DNA from: Eutypella sp. D-1
Taxonomy: Eukaryota > Ascomycota > Sordariomycetes > Xylariales > Diatrypaceae
DNA length: 16,114 bases
Direction of reading: 5' to 3'
Assembly: GCA_023313575.1 (NCBI GenBank)
Contig: JAJTTP010000058.1
Location: 1 to 16,114 of the forward strand
Each line of letters starts with the position of its first letter. Position 1 is the first letter of the stretch. A program made the translations under genes and the position numbers. Shown in pieces: positions 3,055 through 14,390 of this stretch. A model generated the notes under the pieces. It saw only the letters and a program-made list of their open reading frames with translations, had not been told where the DNA came from and did not search any database.

Positions 3055-3370
3055 AAAAATTAATCATAAACTGTCTCCCAGCAATTTTTCCTTTCTAAGG
3101 TCACTTTTCACCCCCGTAGGTTAAAAAAAAGAGGCCAAAATAAATATCCAACATCGCACAGACACCGATGTTTGGATATTTATTTTGGCTTTTTTTATAG
3201 TTGAAGATGGGTTAATTAACCCAAACAATACGATCCCCAAATAAAGGTATTACATTTGTATCTTATCAATTACCTTATTTACTAAAATTTGTCCCCAACC
3301 ATACCTAATAATTAGTAACAGTAAAGCTGCATAGGGTCTTCTCGTCTAACTAGAGGTAAACAGTATCTTC
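3055..3370 (-). rRNA. rnl: LSU rRNA exon (E. coli about 2029-2200)
   Basis: Reading the minus strand from 3370, GAAGATACTGTTTACC followed by GACGAGAAGACCCTATG and CTTTACTGTTACTA matches E. coli 2029-2090, including the A2058-equivalent region at the peptidyl-transferase entrance. The L1-stalk part is shortened and carries a long artificial-looking hairpin (3122-3197). The 3' end around 3055-3080 (GGGAGACAGTTTATG) matches about 2195-2200; that boundary is approximate. Confidence 0.85.
3122..3197. repeat. A/T-tract palindrome in LSU exon
   Basis: Bases 3134-3156 pair with 3166-3189 in a 23-bp stem with a single bulge and a 9-nt loop. The stem is flanked by A8 on one side and T7 on the other. 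The layout (A-tract, long stem, T-tract, GC-rich neighbour CACCCCCGTAGG) matches the elements at 5599-5757 and 11405-11510. It sits in the variable L1-stalk region, where rRNA may tolerate it. Confidence 0.75.
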
Positions 3371-3640
3371 CAGTTCTGATTAAATAGAGGTTAACATACC
3401 ACTGTGCGATGGCTATCTATAAATATAATATAGATACTCCTTCCCTCTTACAAAATAGCAAATTTCGTTTCAGAACCCGACTATACATTTGGACAGACAT
3501 TTCAGCCTAACCCCGGTGATCTAGTCTGTAGCGGCATTCACAACTGCCGACGGTCTTTAATCAGGATATTATTGACCGTTGTCACCTTATTTTTCTATGA
3601 ATTATAAAACTGTTCGATTATAACCTTTCATCAGTTTTAT

Positions 3641-5598: not shown

Positions 5599-5757
5599 CC
5601 TCCGTTCCCCTAGGGAGGGGGCCCCCATCCCCGATGGGGATACGGAGTTAAAAAAAAAATCCAAAATAAAATCTAAATTTAATACACCATATTTGATATA
5701 TATCTATGCGAAGCGGATTTTAGGTTTTGATTTTTTTTTAACCGAAGGTCGCGAAAA
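5599..5757. mobile_element. double-hairpin palindromic element, copy 1
   Basis: A GC-rich hairpin (CTCCGT...ACGGAG with inner CCCC/GGGG stems, 5600-5647) is followed by A10, an imperfect AT stem (AATCCAAAATAAAATC pairing with the GATTTTAGGTTTTGATT side), a T9 tract and the terminal CCGAAGGTCGCGAAAA. A GCGAAGCGG motif lies in the second arm. The A-tract/AATCCAAA start and the AGGTCGCGAAA end are shared with 11405-11510, which marks a dispersed element family. It lies in the intron 5 interior. Confidence 0.65.
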
Positions 5758-6151
5758 CTAATAGTTAATTTAGCTAATGAATACCTGGAGGCCAATTACG
5801 TTCACTCGCTTATCAGATATGACTGCTATAGTATAACTTCCAAACTTTACATTATAGCTCTAGCATATTTTACATAGGTTAAAATAAAGGTGTTACTATA
5901 ATTAGTTTCCCTTTTATACTAGAGGTATCTAGTATATTTGTTTTGTATTAGTTAATTATCCATTTATAATTAACCTCTACTTATATAATAATTAAGCCTC
6001 ATAGACTGCAAATAATAGTTTCATATTATTAAACTAGTCATACAAAGTATGGTTTACATGGATTTTTCAGTAAATCCGAATAAAAAGTAAGTTCATAGAG
6101 TAAGACTTTCACTTACGCAGCGGGATTACAATACTATAATCACACATAAGC

Positions 6152-6214
6152 ACTGCTATGCCAATTTCACTGAGTCAATCATAGAGACAGCTGTTGTATC
6201 GTTACATCATTCCG
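6152..6214 (-). rRNA. rnl: LSU rRNA mini-exon (E. coli about 1972-2028)
   Basis: The minus strand reads GGAATGATGTAACG...CAGCTGTCTC then GACTCAGTGAAATTGG and CATAGCAGT. This matches E. coli GTAATGATGG..GGCTGTCTC..GACTCAGTGAAATTGAACTCGCTGT. The exon is only 63 nt, between a 4.1-kb and a 2.8-kb intron. Confidence 0.9.
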
Positions 6215-6611
6215 TCACAACTTCAACCCTAATATTATTATTTTAGGTCCAGGATGTTGTGATTATACATTAAGCCTAGCACATTATTTAGCTAAGCGCC
6301 GGTCTCCCGGTGACTAGAGCACACCTTACAGTATAATATAATACCGAAGAAGCTTCTGCTCGTTGCTCTTTTACAGTGCTACTTTAACACTGACTTAGAT
6401 CCGCGATCACCCGTTCCTATTTATAGAATCTACTGAGTTATTACTTTACACCAGGGATTAGCTGGTCCACCGATATATTTTCATATTAAGCTTAGTATCA
6501 GTAGTTTTAGGGTTTCCCCGGAGTTTGCTCCTTTATTGCACGAGACATCAATTTCCTAAGTTGATATCCTTAATTCTAAATAAATATAATTATTAATTTT
6601 AATTTTCCAAT

Positions 6612-7280
6612 TTAATTATTTTTATAAGTAATTAAATATTTTCCTTCAAATAATTTTCCACTTTCAGCATAAACCTTAATAGTTTGACCTGTTGTACGTA
6701 TATCAGGAGCCAAAGACGCAGCTGCCTGTCTTAAAGATGAATATTCACTTACCGACCCCGTTTCTACATTTCTTACAGATACAAATATACTTTTATCTTT
6801 AATGTGAAAAGTGTCTTCGTTAGCTCATTGAACTATAAACCCTTTATATGGTTTACCTGTTCCTACATATTTGTATAAAGTCGATTTGTTAAATGTACTG
6901 TCAATACTCTTTAAAAAGTCCAGACAACTCTTAATACTATCAAAAGTTTTAATATTATCACGATCACTCTCTGTAATCAGAGTAATATGTCTCCCCTTTT
7001 TTGAGGTCTCTTTAAGAGCTCTTCTATCTTCTTCTAACATTACAAATACTTCAGCCTCTGCCATATTACTTCTTTCTACATCCTTTATTAAATAATCAGT
7101 AAAAATATATTTATTCAGATAAGCCTCTCCTTTTGTATTACAACGACTAAAGATACTATGATGTATTCCTAAATTAAAGATAAAATCTTCTTGTTTATCA
7201 GAAGAATATATTAATAGAGCTAAATCTTTAGTATACATAAACAGAGCTTGCAAGCTCAGAGATTGAGATACTATATCATT
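6612..7280 (-). pseudogene. C-terminal fragment of outer GIY-YIG gene
   Basis: The frame AAT GAT ATA GTA begins at 7280 and runs through ALFMYTKD and LGIHHSIFSRC to TAA at 6614-6612, with TGA as Trp near 6826. It matches the tail typical of the first GIY-YIG class, not of the inner GIY-YIG gene just upstream. An internal ATG at 7229 exists, but there is no catalytic domain, so it is unlikely to act alone. Confidence 0.75.
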
Positions 7281-7304
7281 TAGTTATTATCCTTATAACT
7301 CCAT

Positions 7305-7982
7305 TTACAGATCACTTCGTTTTACTTGAAACCTTTTTTTTAAAACGAAAGGATTAGATTTTTTTAGCCCCTTACTTAAAGCAGCTGCGCTACAACCTAT
7401 GGCCTCCGCAGCTTTAGCCATTGAAAAGTAATTAGACCGCTCTTCAGTCTGCAAATCTAAAACCTCAAGGGATATTCCCTTGGATTTACTCATATTCAAT
7501 TTAGATTCCTCTGAATGCTTTTGACCAAACCACGGGTGGCTCTCACCAAATAAACCATACATTTGGTTATTTTCTCCGTCATATCTCCCCACTAAAGACG
7601 CTCTTATTCTTTCCTTAGTATCTACTGAGTGTCTATAACCTAATGAAGACCCGGCTACTTGTAAGATATTATATTCAGGTTTAAGAAGATTTAGATAGTA
7701 ATTTTCTCTATCTATAACATCAGATTTATTACAGTACTCAAGGATCTCTAATTTAAAGTGCGAATGCCCGTATTTCAGAATTGCTGCATATATCTTGCTT
7801 TGACCTAACTTTATTTTACTTCTCATTAAATCTAAGGAATAATAATGTTTCAATCTATTTTTTAAATCCACACCAGATCCTACATATGATTTACCATTAT
7901 CCTTATTTGTTCAAAGATATATACCAGATTTTCCTTTATTCTCATTTAAGATTTGTGTTTTTTGTGCGAAGCGGTTCCCCAT
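7305..7982 (-). CDS. inner GIY-YIG homing endonuclease
   Basis: A 225-residue GIY-YIG endonuclease from ATG 7982, with TGA as Trp24. GIY is at 20-22, SYVG at 32-35 and the catalytic Arg43 lies in VDLKNR. The catalytic Glu93 lies in DRENYYL, and the Asn-rich YNIL motif follows. NUMOD3-type zinc-free modules (YRHS..TKERI, FGQKHSEESK) lie at about 120-170. A C-terminal helix-turn-helix-like module (MAKAAEAIGCSAAALSKGL) follows, and the gene stops at 7305. The length is typical for this class. All catalytic positions are intact, so it may be active. It interrupts an older GIY-YIG gene of a different class. Its first codons cross the GC cluster at 7962-7975, which may have supplied the start. Confidence 0.85.
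7958..7981. repeat. GCGAAGCGG GC cluster
   Basis: GTGCGAAGCGGTTCCCC follows a T6 tract. It matches the GC cluster ends at 2558-2568, 5706-5715 and 10193-10206. It lies at the 5' end of the inner GIY-YIG gene and forms its first codons. Confidence 0.6.
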
Positions 7983-8013
7983 CTAAGTAAGTCGCCACTG
8001 GTAAGATATCATT

Positions 8014-8247
8014 AACTACCTTTAATGTATTAAGATTGAATTTACTATGAAGTAAGAAATACTGTTCTAAACAAAATTCTAATCCTTCATAATATTCTTC
8101 ATTAAAGGTTATAACATCTAAAGTAAAAGCTTTTAAACCCTCCTCTTTTAAAAGAGGTAAAAATTTTCCGACACTTGCATGAGTACCTTTAAAGTAACCT
8201 ATTAATCTCCTAGCTAATTGACGAGATGATCCTACATACAATTTTTT
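8014..8247 (-). pseudogene. middle fragment of outer GIY-YIG gene
   Basis: The fragment starts KKLYVGSSRQLARRL, so the YIG half-motif and the catalytic Arg are here while the GIY half lies 933 nt upstream. It continues with the conserved GLEFCLEQYFLL (catalytic Glu) and FNLNTLKVVNDI. There is no ATG at its start, and a TAA at 8257-8259 separates it from the upstream frame. The reading frame then runs on into the insert and stops at 7942. Confidence 0.8.
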
Positions 8248-8249
8248 AC

Positions 8250-9182
8250 ATAAACTTTATCCTCATTTATTAAATTCAGACAATAAAGAATCGATTCTTT
8301 CTTTTCTAGCTGAGTCTGCACCAATGTTCTTATTATTAAGTATTTCAACTATTTCTTTTCAGATCTTAAAATTATGAGATTTAAGAGCAGTAGATGGAAT
8401 AGGATATCGATCAAAAAAGGGTATTATAATATCTAAACAACTTTTCATTGATCCTACTTCATAATTCAAACTATTACCATTTTTGTAAATATTACCTACC
8501 TTTAAATAATCTTTAATTTCCTCGAGCAAAGTTAAATCTCTATTGTGTTGAGTTATAAAAAATTTAACTTTATAAGTTTTCGATCTATAAGGATAAGCTG
8601 AAAAAGATCCATCACCCGCTACGAAACCCACTAATCAGGAAGGATCATAAATAGGTATTGGTTGCAGATCAGGCAGTTCATAAGGTTTAATGTTTGGAAA
8701 AGCTGCGATTAATTTTGGTGAAAGACCTTTATTATTATTAGCTTTAATTCTGATAATTTCCAGGAGTCCTTCACTAGTTAAATGTCCACCCATTTCCATA
8801 ATATTGGCTACCTTACTTCACAAAAGAAAGTCTTGACGTTTCTTAGTTAATAAAGGATACTTATTAAAATGAGGGATTATAAGTTTAATTATATCTTGAA
8901 CATTTGAAACCCTAAAAAAAGCCTTATTATTTTTAGAATCTATAGCTATATATCCGATTCCTTTAAAATATTCTTGAATACTTAATAATTGAGGTAAATC
9001 TTTCTCATGTAAACAAAATTCTAATCGAATCTGCACACGTCATTTCAACTTTGAAGTTTCCCTAGGATACACAGAAATATGAAAAGTACCTTCCGCATCC
9101 GTGAATCCTGATATAAAACTAGGATCATTTATGTTTTTATTTTGCCTTCCTTCGGACGAAGTTGTACTAAAAAATCTTTTAC
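8250..9182 (-). mobile_element. 933-nt LAGLIDADG HEG insertion inside GIY-YIG catalytic motif
   Basis: An imperfect direct repeat GTAAAARATT lies at 9173-9182 and 8240-8249 (one mismatch), separated by 933 nt (311 codons). Removing one unit joins THIATGK to KLYVGSS and regenerates a normal GIY-YIG core. The insert is filled by a LAGLIDADG frame, with no room for a group I or II ribozyme. There are no intein splicing blocks. Confidence 0.7.
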
Positions 9183-9648
9183 CTGTGGCTATATGTGTTC
9201 AGATATAGACTCCTCCTTTACTTTTCTCATTTCTAATAGTACCTATTTCATCTAAAAATAATTCGGACGAGATAGTATTTTTATCTAAATTTATAAAATT
9301 TGTAGGATTTTTACTTAAAATCAAATCCAAAGTATTTTGATCTATACTAAATTTGGTAAAGGCTAACACATTATTTACTTCTAACGCAGTTATTCTTACA
9401 CCTTTATTTGAATATTCTAAAGCCAAATCGTAAGGAGTTTTATTAATCTCCTTAACTTTATATTTTCTATTTGTTATTAAACCTCAATTCCTGCTGCTGT
9501 AAAAAGACATTGTTGTAAATCCCGCCCTCAAAAAAAAGAATTTATTATTAAAAGTTAAATTATGGCTATTTAAAAAAGACTTGCTGCTATTAATACGTGT
9601 TCCATTTAATCCAACATAATTATTAGTGTTAAAGTTCATATTTTTCAT
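8257..9648 (-). CDS. GIY-stub/LAGLIDADG fusion endonuclease
   Basis: One open frame of 463 residues (TGA = Trp). Residues 1-157 are the N-terminal part of the outer GIY-YIG gene, ending in GGVYIWTHIATGK. Residues from about 159 are a complete LAGLIDADG endonuclease. Motif 1 FISGFTDAEGTF has Glu186, motif 2 WLVGFVAGDGSF has Asp346, and the frame ends in TAA at 8257. The LAGLIDADG part has no ATG of its own near its start, so it seems to borrow the invaded gene's start and leader. Both catalytic acids are intact, so the nuclease may still work. The region between motif 1 and motif 2 resembles the gene at 13276-12323. Proteolytic trimming of the stub is possible, as for other intron-read-through HEGs, but this is inference. 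Confidence 0.8.
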
Positions 9649-9659
9649 TTTTTCTATTA

Positions 9660-10295
9660 CATAGACTAGATACGTTCCAGACCCGGGTGAAAGAATCACC
9701 ATGCCAGATCACATATAAATACTTCAGGTATATATGCTTTGACGGCTTTTTTTACTGGCAAACCGAGAATCTCTACTTCCCAAGCGTTTCCGCTTCCTCA
9801 AACTTAGGAAGAAATTCTTGTCCTATCACATTGGTGTCGCACCTGGACCAGACTCAACCCAAAGCTACAGGTTCATGTCAGTAGATACACCAATTAATAA
9901 ATTAATAGGATAAAAATCCTAGAGGAAACAATAATTGTAATTAAATCTATAAATAATAACTAATAAAAAGAATAAGAATCTACTTATCCTAAAGAAAGCA
10001 AATAGCCAGCCTTGATGCCTACTCATTGTCGGTGAGCCTTTACCCCGGTTTTCTCGTCTTTTCAGCTGTAAGAAGGTTATCAGTGGACTTGTAGCCTACC
10101 TTAAAATAAGATATTAATAAACAGATAATAACAATTACGAGGCAATAGTAAAGGCGAATTAATGATAAATCAAACAGATACAGGATTATCTGTTTGTGCG
10201 GAGCGGTTATAAAAGCTCCTATAGGTATTATATACCATTAGTGTTATTTTATGGAATCTACCATTATATTATATTTATTTAGAATTGAGATGTAG
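9660..10295 (-). other. structured, non-coding 5' part of intron 4
   Basis: Two GC-richer, structured blocks lie here: 10005-10110 (AACCGGGGTAAAGGCTCACC-like, resembling P4/P5 sequence) and 9690-9895 (several short complementary stems such as GGAAGCGGAAACGCTT). The intron's start pairs with itself: the sequence across the 5' splice site, ATGAATCTACAT, can pair with ATGGTAGATTCCAT at about 10245-10258, a P1-like helix. I could not lay out a full second P-Q-R-S core here. It could be P2 and peripheral domains of the intron or a second degenerate intron. Confidence 0.45.
10193..10214. repeat. GCGGAGCGG GC cluster
   Basis: GTGCGGAGCGGTTATAAAAGC is a one-base variant of the GCGAAGCGG clusters elsewhere in the window, in non-coding intron sequence. 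Confidence 0.55.
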
Positions 10296-10625
10296 ATTCA
10301 TGCAAAGACTGCATTTAACAGTCAAGGTATTCCGCTACCTTAGGACCCTCACGTTAAGGCCGCCATTAACCGGGGGTTCCTACAGTACCAAACCTTTTAA
10401 GGTTAGTTATTTTCGTTAGCCAGCCGGCACCGGGCAGAAATCACACTCTATACTTAGACTTTAAGTCTTTATGCAAAGTGCTTTGTTTTAATTAAACAGT
10501 CGTACAACATTATTTCATGCTTCTTCCTTCTTACCCGTGATCCACATTTTTACCTTGCTCATCTTTTTAGTTTGTTGCCGAAATAAAAACGGAGATCCGG
10601 GACAAATGAGCCCTCCTTCAACTTG
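10296..10625 (-). rRNA. rnl: LSU rRNA exon, domain IV (E. coli about 1695-1971)
   Basis: This is the best-conserved block. The minus strand reads ACTGTTTAATTAAAACAAAGC, then TGATTTCTGCCCGGTGCCGG, ACCCCCGGTTAATGGCGGCC and GGTCCTAAGGTAGCGGAATA, ending at TGCATGAAT. These match E. coli about 1770, 1825, 1900 and 1925-1971, the domain IV helices at the subunit interface. The 5' end (GAAGGAGGGCTCATTTGTCCCGG) matches the about 1695 region after the intron. Confidence 0.95.
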
Positions 10626-10756: not shown

Positions 10757-11849
10757 CTACAATGCAGAAGGTGTTTCTTCAAGAATTCTAACCTCCTCCT
10801 CAGTTAAGGTTTGAATTTTTTTATTTTTTCATGTAGATAATCTTGCACTATTCATACCTTCTGCTAATTTTAACAAAACATCTTTTACTTGTTTATTGTT
10901 AATATGTGCTTTCCTATCTAACACTTTACAAATAAAACAAAAGTCTTCAAAATCCTTTCTCTTGTCCGAAAAAAATTTTAATTTATTAAAAAATACATTA
11001 AAATAATTATGTAAGAAATTAACTCCTGTAATTTCTAATCTTACTGTAGGTTTACTATTAGATTTTCCCTGAAGATCACGAATTTTCATCTTAGGCAATT
11101 TTCCAGATAACTGATATGATTCATCCAATCCTAAGTTACTTATAAGATAAGATTGAATTGCGACTATAAGAGGTTTTTGAGCTAAAGTTAATTCTAACTC
11201 AAATTTCGGAGTTAAGTCTTTTTTTTGTATCATAAAACTCCCGTCCCCTTCGATCAAACCTAATAATTTATAATCAGTAATAACACAACTATGCTCAACG
11301 GGCATTATAAATTCAGAACGATTTGTATTATGGTTTCCCCGTATTTCTTCAATTTCAGTTATCAAAGATTCAGTTACTAAACCTGGACGATCAAAATATA
11401 AAACCACCAGAGGTGTTTAAAAAAAATCCAAACTAAAATCTTAAACAATATAAACAATACAATTAAGAAGATTTAGATTTTAGTTTGGATTTTTTTTTAC
11501 CGGAGGTCGCGAAAGCCTTTCTAAAGCTAATATAATCTAAATATTTAGCTCCCATTAAAGTAGTTTTATCTAATAGGTTTATAAGAATACGTAATTCCTC
11601 TTCAGAACCTACTTCAAAAGTACAATTATTACTATGAGGCCGCACAGCTATTCTTCCTATATCCAAAGTATTTTTAATAGCTGTTAAAAGGGGTTCATGA
11701 TCTATATGTAATTTAATAGTGAACTCGAAGTAATAACGAATTTTACCATTAGACATGGTTTTTCGCTTTATATGAAAACAACCTTCAGCGTCAGTAAAAC
11801 CTACAAATCATTCAACAAAATTAGGATTATTTTGAAACTCTTTCATCAT
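10757..11849 (-). pseudogene. LAGLIDADG HEG disrupted by palindromic element
   Basis: This is a double-motif LAGLIDADG gene from ATG 11849. Motif 1 is WFVGFTDAEGCF near 11810-11775 (TGA = Trp). Motif 2 is LLGLIEGDGSF near 11265-11233, where the residue usually Trp is Lys-Leu. A C-terminal modular segment ends at TAG 10757. Just after SFRKAF, at a position where the homologues continue into a LYF(N/D)R segment, a 106-nt palindromic element (11405-11510) intervenes. The upstream frame runs into it and stops at 11463. The downstream frame is offset by one and carries on with VLYFDRP. Apart from the insert, both parts are open and well conserved, so the disruption looks recent. Confidence 0.85.
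11405..11510. mobile_element. double-hairpin palindromic element, copy 2
   Basis: A small GC hairpin (CACC-AGA-GGTG) is followed by TTTA8, then TCCAAACTAAAATCT. The complementary AGATTTTAGTTTGGA and T9 come after an AT-rich loop, and the element ends CCGGAGGTCGCGAAAG. The stem is about 23 bp and perfect near its base. The ends match copy 1 at 5599-5757. It lies inside a LAGLIDADG gene, and its 106-nt length accounts for the frame offset. Confidence 0.8.
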
Positions 11850-14024: not shown

Positions 14025-14390
14025 TTTTAATCCTTATGTAAAAATTCCAAGTATCCTTGGGGGCCAGAGTACACCTTACAATTATAAAAAAGATAAACCT
14101 AGTTTATCTAGCTATTTATAAATGAAGAACCGTCTACTCGTTGCTCTTTTACAATAAGATTTTTAGTAAAAATTCAGTATATACATTTTTTCTATATACT
14201 TTTAATTATTATTGATTTAGATCCGCGATACTCCATTACTATTGCTAGTATCTACCTGACTTATTACCATACATGAATAATTACTTCATCCGCTTATATC
14301 CTTCCGGGTATAGTTTGGTATCAGGAGCTTTAGGACTTCCCCGGAATTTGGTTCTTTATCACAAAATAAGGAGCCTACCCTTAAATTTAA

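Follow-up and report, generated by a model that had tools for sequence, protein, structure and literature searches.

A GIY-YIG homing endonuclease gene divided by two other homing endonuclease genes in a mitochondrial rnl intron of Eutypella sp. D-1

The first 16,114 nucleotides of contig JAJTTP010000058.1 of the ascomycete Eutypella sp. D-1 (GenBank assembly GCA_023313575.1), analysed here (hereafter, the window), are part of a fungal mitochondrial rnl, the large ribosomal RNA (rRNA) gene, on the minus strand. Between two rnl exons, in one host intron, lie three predicted homing endonuclease genes (HEGs), translated with genetic code 4. The outer one encodes a single GIY-YIG protein of about 450 residues in three ordered minus-strand pieces (9648-9181, 8238-8005 and 7247-6612), the first two of which are separated by a LAGLIDADG gene (insert 1) and the last two by a gene of the GIY-YIG/NUMOD3 type (insert 2). 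Very probably, this arrangement reflects two successive invasions of an rnl-intron HEG by HEGs without ribozymes, that of the GIY-YIG/NUMOD3 gene coming first and that of the LAGLIDADG gene later.

Three genes within one rnl intron

The features of the locus, in the direction of the minus strand, are the following.

10297 to 10503, minus strand: upstream rnl exon, matching about 1770-1970 of Escherichia coli 23S rRNA (nhmmer E 9.8e-18; RF02541)
9181 to 9648, minus strand: N piece of the outer gene, 156 residues, ending ...GGVYIWTHIATG; 139 of 150 residues identical to the homologue P0009; wholly within the relative P0003
8239 to 9180, minus strand: insert 1, LAGLIDADG HEG, 942 nucleotides (PF00961; PDB relatives of the I-OnuI/I-SmaMI/I-PanMI type); absent from P0003 and P0009
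8257 to 9180, minus strand: coding part of the LAGLIDADG gene, 307 residues, in frame with the N piece and closed by TAA at 8259-8257
8005 to 8238, minus strand: middle piece of the outer gene, 78 residues (YVGSS...NTLKVVNDI); 74 of 78 identical to P0009; wholly within P0003
7248 to 8004, minus strand: insert 2, GIY-YIG/NUMOD3 HEG with short flanks, 757 nucleotides (PF01541 and PF07460); related insertions in P0240 and P0230
7305 to 7982, minus strand: open reading frame (ORF) of insert 2, 225 residues; PDB match to the catalytic domain of I-TevI
7965 to 7974, minus strand: GC-rich 10-mer CCGCTTCGCA within insert 2; the relative P0242 reads ATYTNAELQKKQILEENKGK across this point
6612 to 7247, minus strand: C piece of the outer gene, 211 residues and stop, with the end of the linker and the C-terminal part; 192 of 210 identical to P0009
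6296 to 6589, minus strand: group I ribozyme core, 3' of the HEGs (RF00028, full model, 22.4 bits, E 0.0015 in a scan of 521 nucleotides)
6106 to 6215, minus strand: downstream rnl exon, matching about 1965-2061 of E. coli 23S rRNA (weak nhmmer match, E 0.018; exact 15-mer by blastn; reading by eye)

The exon alignments place the insertion point of the host intron at about 1972-1974 of E. coli 23S rRNA. The score of the ribozyme core is below the RF00028 gathering score of 50, and a local scan detected no group I core at 9600-10300. Rfam scans of the whole window were too insensitive and missed the core at 6589-6296; because they were blind to the ribozyme of the host intron itself, the absence of ribozymes from the inserts was judged by local scans. 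The core coincides with the middle one of three spaced sets of related segments (306-559, 6337-6536 and 14115-14359; repeats D4-D6), so that two further introns of the same kind are likely to be present in the window. In the 5' part of the host intron, the minus-strand segment 10070-10040, AAAAGACGAGAAAACCGGGG, resembles what we take to be a conserved segment of the large-subunit rRNA, either by chance or as a captured piece of an exon.

The original prediction of a GIY-YIG gene cut into three ordered pieces by a LAGLIDADG gene and a second GIY-YIG gene agrees with the coordinates and with the identities to P0009. The N and middle pieces have a common reading frame, which stays open upstream of the N piece to 9822, and the C piece is shifted by +1. 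Taken alone, the middle piece stays below the Pfam cutoff for the GIY-YIG domain (PF01541, profile positions 13-72, 20 bits against 22.6), which the intact P0009 passes (E 9e-07, 29.6 bits). In the AlphaFold model of P0009 (mean predicted local distance difference test score, pLDDT, 70.8; predicted template modelling score, pTM, 0.40), the GIY...YVG hairpin consists of strands 143-149 and 155-158, and residues 225-237 form a low-confidence linker. Insert 1 maps to the hairpin turn, between the two strands, and insert 2 maps after residue 233, inside the linker that precedes the C-terminal part, which presumably binds DNA. The active-site hairpin encoded in the window is thus interrupted, with 942 nucleotides between GVYIWTHIATG and YVGSS, making this gene a disrupted member of its family. 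At columns invariant among 16 relatives, 18 of 18 residues are kept in the N piece, 26 of 27 in the middle piece and 28 of 28 in the C piece; when each of the 16 relatives was left out in turn as a control, it departed from 0 to 10 of 76-86 such columns.

Insert 1 contains two LAGLIDADG_1 domains (PF00961, 2 stretches, 167.4 bits, E 1.6e-49) and is predicted to encode a site-specific homing endonuclease. The N piece, the LAGLIDADG gene and the middle piece constitute one frame, the in-frame arrangement by which a “secondary invader” is recognised in PMC12308204, and 18 nucleotides separate the TAA of insert 1 from the resumption of the outer gene. The earliest methionine in insert 1 is residue 128; with an ATG start, therefore, the LAGLIDADG protein could be produced solely from the start of the outer gene, and it is the outer N piece that provides the start codon for the fusion.

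The GIY-YIG and NUMOD3 domains of insert 2 score 42.1 and 44.8 bits, both above the cutoff. The start region of this insert reads ATYLDGE, then the GC-rich CCGCTTCGCA, then QKTQILNENKGK in the next frame, and we infer that insert 2 was formerly fused in frame to the outer gene until the GC cluster broke this fusion, the ORF now starting with the ATG at 7982. GC-rich words similar to CCGCTTCGCA occur on the plus strand at 2561, 5707 and 10197; the one at 2561, TGCGAAGC (region 2540-2600), coincides with a frame change in a LAGLIDADG gene (ORFs 2769-2536 and 2576-1563).

It had also been proposed that codon phases and flanking repeats at both inserts agree with exact insertion into one ancestral frame. 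For the phases, this is borne out by the common frame of the N and middle pieces, but not by the +1 shift of the C piece nor by insert 2, which replaces six family-conserved linker residues (SGSRSK) and is not an exact insertion. The repeats were compared with random pairs. At insert 1, between 34 and 44 of 500 such pairs, depending on word length, do as well as the best junction match, GTAAAAGATT/GTAAAAAATT, and 372-459 of 500 do so with off-centre windows, and the match at insert 2, AATGATAT, is equalled by 32-42 of 500 with the 3' window on the repeat and by 452-497 of 500 at the junction itself. The repeats are weak at both inserts, and the case is not carried by them.

Intact and intermediate relatives

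An uninterrupted homologue, for which the original prediction had called, was found by a search with the LAGLIDADG fusion: P0009 is a GIY-YIG protein of 449 residues in which the three pieces follow one another in order and both inserts are absent. At E <= 1e-8, P0009 is matched by 165 proteins, the best 120 of which were listed, and the uninterrupted hairpin pattern GVYIW...[GD]-x(1-3)-YVGSS fits 79 of the 110 outer-family proteins examined, the other 31 falling outside the pattern and not having been checked singly. Scans of viral contigs with the C piece and with the outer-family alignment recovered no relative of the outer gene, the LAGLIDADG alignment recovered one distant locus only in these contigs (L002, 35% identity), and the genome contigs yielded no outer-family match.

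The second informative relative, P0003, is identical to the window at 156 of 156 residues of the N piece and 78 of 78 of the middle piece. In place of the 942 nucleotides of the window, it has the two residues SM, and then it runs into the start of insert 2 as the window does. The filling SM is native at this site: of the 79 pattern-fitting intact hairpins, 3 have it, and 76 have K or M as the last residue. P0003 accordingly resembles an empty site rather than the product of an excision. The LAGLIDADG insert is, then, separable, and we take the presence of the insert 2 start in a gene free of the LAGLIDADG to mean that insert 2 came first and the LAGLIDADG second, recently.

These relatives make the following scenario very probable. 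In the first step, the GIY-YIG/NUMOD3 gene was inserted into the linker that joins the catalytic domain of the outer protein to the C-terminal part. In the second, the LAGLIDADG gene was inserted into the hairpin turn of the catalytic domain, separating the GVYIWTHIATG codons from those for YVGSS. Homing being the presumed mechanism, each insert would have arrived through its own double-strand break, made by the predicted cleavage activity, and the ensuing repair. If translated, the LAGLIDADG would prolong the outer N-terminus in the same frame, stopping just before the outer gene resumes, and would thus borrow the start of its victim while destroying the active site of the latter. The whole nest would be expected to leave the rRNA together with the single host intron, by splicing.

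Nested introns are common in fungal mitochondria, and one or both inserts might instead be introns, or intron parts, that are removed from the RNA to restore the outer frame, as in a twintron; the relative P0038, in which about 100 residues resembling a translated intron lie between a GIY-YIG half and the LAGLIDADG (as judged by eye), lends some plausibility to this possibility. A twintron, though, is defined by an internal element with its own ribozyme, and the one core found at this locus is that at 6589-6296. As predicted originally, the inserts appear to be devoid of ribozymes: local Rfam scans (E <= 10) found no group I or group II intron in insert 1 or insert 2, the only matches, to other families, being at chance level (best E 4.4), whereas a scan of the same type detects the core of the host intron. 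Furthermore, coding sequence fills 924 of the 942 nucleotides of insert 1 and 678 of the 757 nucleotides of insert 2. The twintron is, on this evidence, very improbable, and the proposal that free-moving HEGs invaded a HEG is supported by P0009 and P0003 as well as by the lack of ribozyme matches in the inserts.

Removal of the LAGLIDADG insert at the protein level, in the manner of an intein, might be envisaged given that insert 1 keeps the reading frame at both of its ends and that a relative, P0012, reads into its GIY-YIG remainder without a stop. Against this stand the in-frame TAA (8259-8257), located before the outer gene resumes, and the lack of an intein domain among the Pfam matches; moreover, intein splicing involves Cys or Ser as the first residue, and insert 1 begins with Lys. 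We consider an intein-like element to be a vanishingly improbable explanation.

Finally, metagenome assemblies can be chimeric, and pieces from different loci might have been joined artificially. The cluster of the LAGLIDADG fusion, P0001, nevertheless comprises 4 sequences from 4 contigs, and that of insert 2, P0238, comprises 5 sequences from 7 contigs (the window is possibly counted among these), the same kinds of junction recur in other relatives, and the pieces follow in order within a single intron flanked by exons, all of which renders an artefact extremely improbable. Two HEGs inserted in succession into a third thus remain the preferred explanation of the locus.

Relatives of the two inserts, and other elements of the window

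The LAGLIDADG query matched 263 proteins at E <= 1e-10 among 7998 candidates scored. Of these, 120 were listed, from which P0003 and P0009, not being LAGLIDADG proteins, were excluded, leaving 118; six of the 118 were too short and were dropped, and the tree accordingly represents 112 LAGLIDADG cores. Among the matches listed, eight LAGLIDADG genes bear a GIY-YIG half cut at the same hairpin, namely, P0001 (the window), P0004, P0007, P0008, P0011, P0012, P0014 and P0018. All eight belong to one clade of 12 rows, which groups the nearest LAGLIDADG relatives of insert 1, with a support by the Shimodaira-Hasegawa-like approximate likelihood ratio test (SH-aLRT) of 87 (quick search, not starred), or 94 with P0023 added. 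GIY-YIG flanks are carried by 8 of the 12 clade members compared with 4 of 100 elsewhere in the tree. The frames of the remaining four clade members (P0005, P0006, P0010 and P0015) include no such flank. Outside the clade, the flanked genes are the near-identical P0056, P0058 and P0063, with the insertion lying some twelve residues beyond the position used in the clade, and P0038, where the cut comes after YIGSA (N-flank match 1.3e-5), which is perhaps a case of a LAGLIDADG-bearing intron within a GIY-YIG gene.

The flank label requires 6 changes on the tree, against a mean of 11.6 when shuffled, and none of 500 shuffles was as low. Fisher p values for the clade versus the rest, which serve as guides only, since the tree rows are related, are 4e-7 for all rows, 3e-6 with near-copies collapsed, and 2e-5 with the window also left out; counting only the clear labels in the clade (P0001, P0004, P0007 and P0012), the contrast is 4 of 12 versus 4 of 100 (p 0.004). 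The labels were examined by scanning 98 N-flanks and 12 C-flanks of the 118 proteins against 207 trimmed GIY-YIG domains, trimming being needed because some whole GIY-YIG records have N-terminal extensions like those of LAGLIDADG records, which would be misleading. P0001, for which no N-flank was extracted, and P0005, the frame of which begins at the core, were left unscored. The best E values in 12 shuffles ranged from 1e-4 to 1e-2, so that P0004 and P0012 (both on the C side) and P0007 (on the N side) are clear of the controls, and P0008, P0011, P0014 and P0018 are labelled by the motif and its position beside the LAGLIDADG start, not by the E value; the scored flank match of P0018 lies elsewhere in its flank. 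In P0017, a chance match to the motif falls within the LAGLIDADG domain and was not counted. P0012 is a cox1-exon fusion in which the LAGLIDADG is followed by a GIY-YIG domain that starts only from position 17 of the Pfam profile (the middle piece in the window starts from position 13). Apart from P0001, no scanned LAGLIDADG flank is close to the rnl-type outer gene; the best match, that of the P0012 C flank (5e-13), reflects the shared GIY-YIG domain.

Within the window, TATGTAGGATC is found at two sites only, the YVGS codons of the outer gene (8238) and those of insert 2 (7886), and a LAGLIDADG recognition site spanning such codons would be expected to recur in many GIY-YIG genes. Conceivably, then, this LAGLIDADG lineage specialises on GIY-YIG genes, homing to the conserved DNA that encodes the GIY...YVG hairpin, and spreads among those of different introns (rnl, cox1 and others), a proposition that, in our judgment, is evenly poised. 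Such a lineage would, each time, use the start of its victim and destroy the active site, and hyperparasites would repeatedly find a niche in GIY-YIG genes, where a second guild, of the insert 2 type, would occupy the linker.

As to this second guild, 4 of 104 N-flanks of insert 2 relatives match outer-family genes at E < 1e-20, those of P0230 (8e-114), P0246 (2e-55), P0240 (4e-39) and P0347 (4e-27). P0230 and P0240 have the insertion in, or close to, the same linker, and P0246 and P0347 have it at other positions. In the case of P0271 (1.7e-5), the insertion comes after the corresponding end of the catalytic domain, in a cox1-type GIY-YIG gene (by eye, compared with P0012). In P0265 and P0324, one GIY-YIG gene appears, by eye, to have been interrupted close to its YVG codons by another, which suggests that invaders of the GIY type may use the catalytic motif as well.

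Elsewhere in the window, a hairpin element at 11405-11515, with 26-nucleotide arms (11419-11444 and 11472-11497) that are 96% complementary, lies in another LAGLIDADG ORF and divides it in two (11852-11463 and 11416-10757). Hairpins of a similar type are located at 3127-3196 and 5647-5742, and there is a direct repeat of 101 nucleotides, D3 (1333-1433 and 3465-3565), with 83% identity.

The proposed double invasion weighed and compared with known systems

The most substantial alternative is that the insertions are real but arose through illegitimate recombination rather than through the activity of the inserted endonucleases, their location in a HEG being a passive effect of a safe site. An intron-borne HEG is, indeed, neutral ground, GIY-type invaders are found at several different positions, linker codons were lost at insert 2, and the clade contrast becomes less pronounced when only the clear labels are counted. 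Conversely, passive accumulation would not readily account for the concentration of hairpin-cut flanks in the clade, with all four flanked genes outside it cut at other positions, nor for the presence, in or close to this linker in other genes, of insertions related to insert 2. We regard this alternative as unlikely, albeit far from negligible.

Several observations, furthermore, weigh against the proposed double invasion. The second catalytic acid of the insert 1 LAGLIDADG is D, whereas it is E in the PDB relative 36of. The complete retention of the invariant residues in the C piece fits a recent insertion, but would fit some remaining function of this piece as well. P0003 rests on one member sequence from one contig of 1735 bp, and P0003 and P0009 were compared with the window as proteins, so that the junctions are resolved to the codon, not to the base. 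In addition, with no other close flank match, the exact pairing of this LAGLIDADG with this outer gene is seen once.

If the proposed specialisation is correct, HEGs provide a habitat for site-specific parasites of their own. This would give a testable answer to the question of how HEGs without ribozymes survive and pass from intron to intron: they would travel within another HEG, at a catalytic motif that is hard for the victim to alter. The filled allele of the window and the LAGLIDADG-empty allele of P0003, identical at 234 of 234 flanking residues, make recent homing into a HEG directly testable, and the clade may supply natural meganucleases with a predictable target.

Among enzymes of known structure, insert 1 shares the fold family of I-OnuI, I-SmaMI and I-PanMI; none of the PDB titles listed names a GIY-YIG gene as the target. 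Insert 2 has sequence similarity to the catalytic domain of I-TevI. The outer gene is further removed: its weak fold match to the I-TevI type has an E value of 0.13 at best, the fold search with its model gave no match at E <= 0.001, nor did its family profile match any PDB sequence at that threshold, and, unlike the I-TevI type, it has a long N-terminal extension of about 140 residues.

Neither double nesting nor a preference for GIY-YIG targets is apparent in the excerpted texts of PMC8393795, PMC7487136, PMC12007492, PMC6279837, PMC8260586 and PMC5626475, and we recognised no description of either in the open literature searched, most subscription journals being outside this scope. Introns with two HEG ORFs (atp6-572, cox1-212 and nad5-248) are reported in PMC12308204, the excerpts of which do not state that one ORF splits the other. 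A footnote in the same source mentions that, in Ophiostoma montium cob-490, a LAG(2) gene is apparently interrupted by a single-motif LAG; like the rnl case, this is a HEG interrupting a HEG, but the invader and the resident are of the same family, and the case is confined, in these excerpts, to the footnote, without target analysis.

The closest parallel is cox1-212 of Leptographium sp. WIN(M)1376, where, according to the excerpted text of PMC10448965, a LAGLIDADG gene in a GIY-YIG ORF is fused in frame and is accompanied by a partial group I module; PMC12308204, in the part consulted, terms it a possible “secondary invader”. In both cases, a group I intron of a fungal mitochondrial gene houses a GIY-YIG ORF whose N-terminal part has received, in frame, a double-motif LAGLIDADG. 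As portrayed in these excerpts, however, cox1-212 is a single insertion, in cox1, with the partial group I module, whereas in rnl the insert has no ribozyme match and a second HEG is present too, and intact and intermediate homologues are identified for the rnl case, unlike for cox1-212. Thus, the kind of arrangement is known from one clear case, and what the rnl intron of Eutypella adds is that two HEGs are nested in a third, that intact and intermediate relatives are available, and that the LAGLIDADG clade appears to specialise on the GIY...YVG hairpin.

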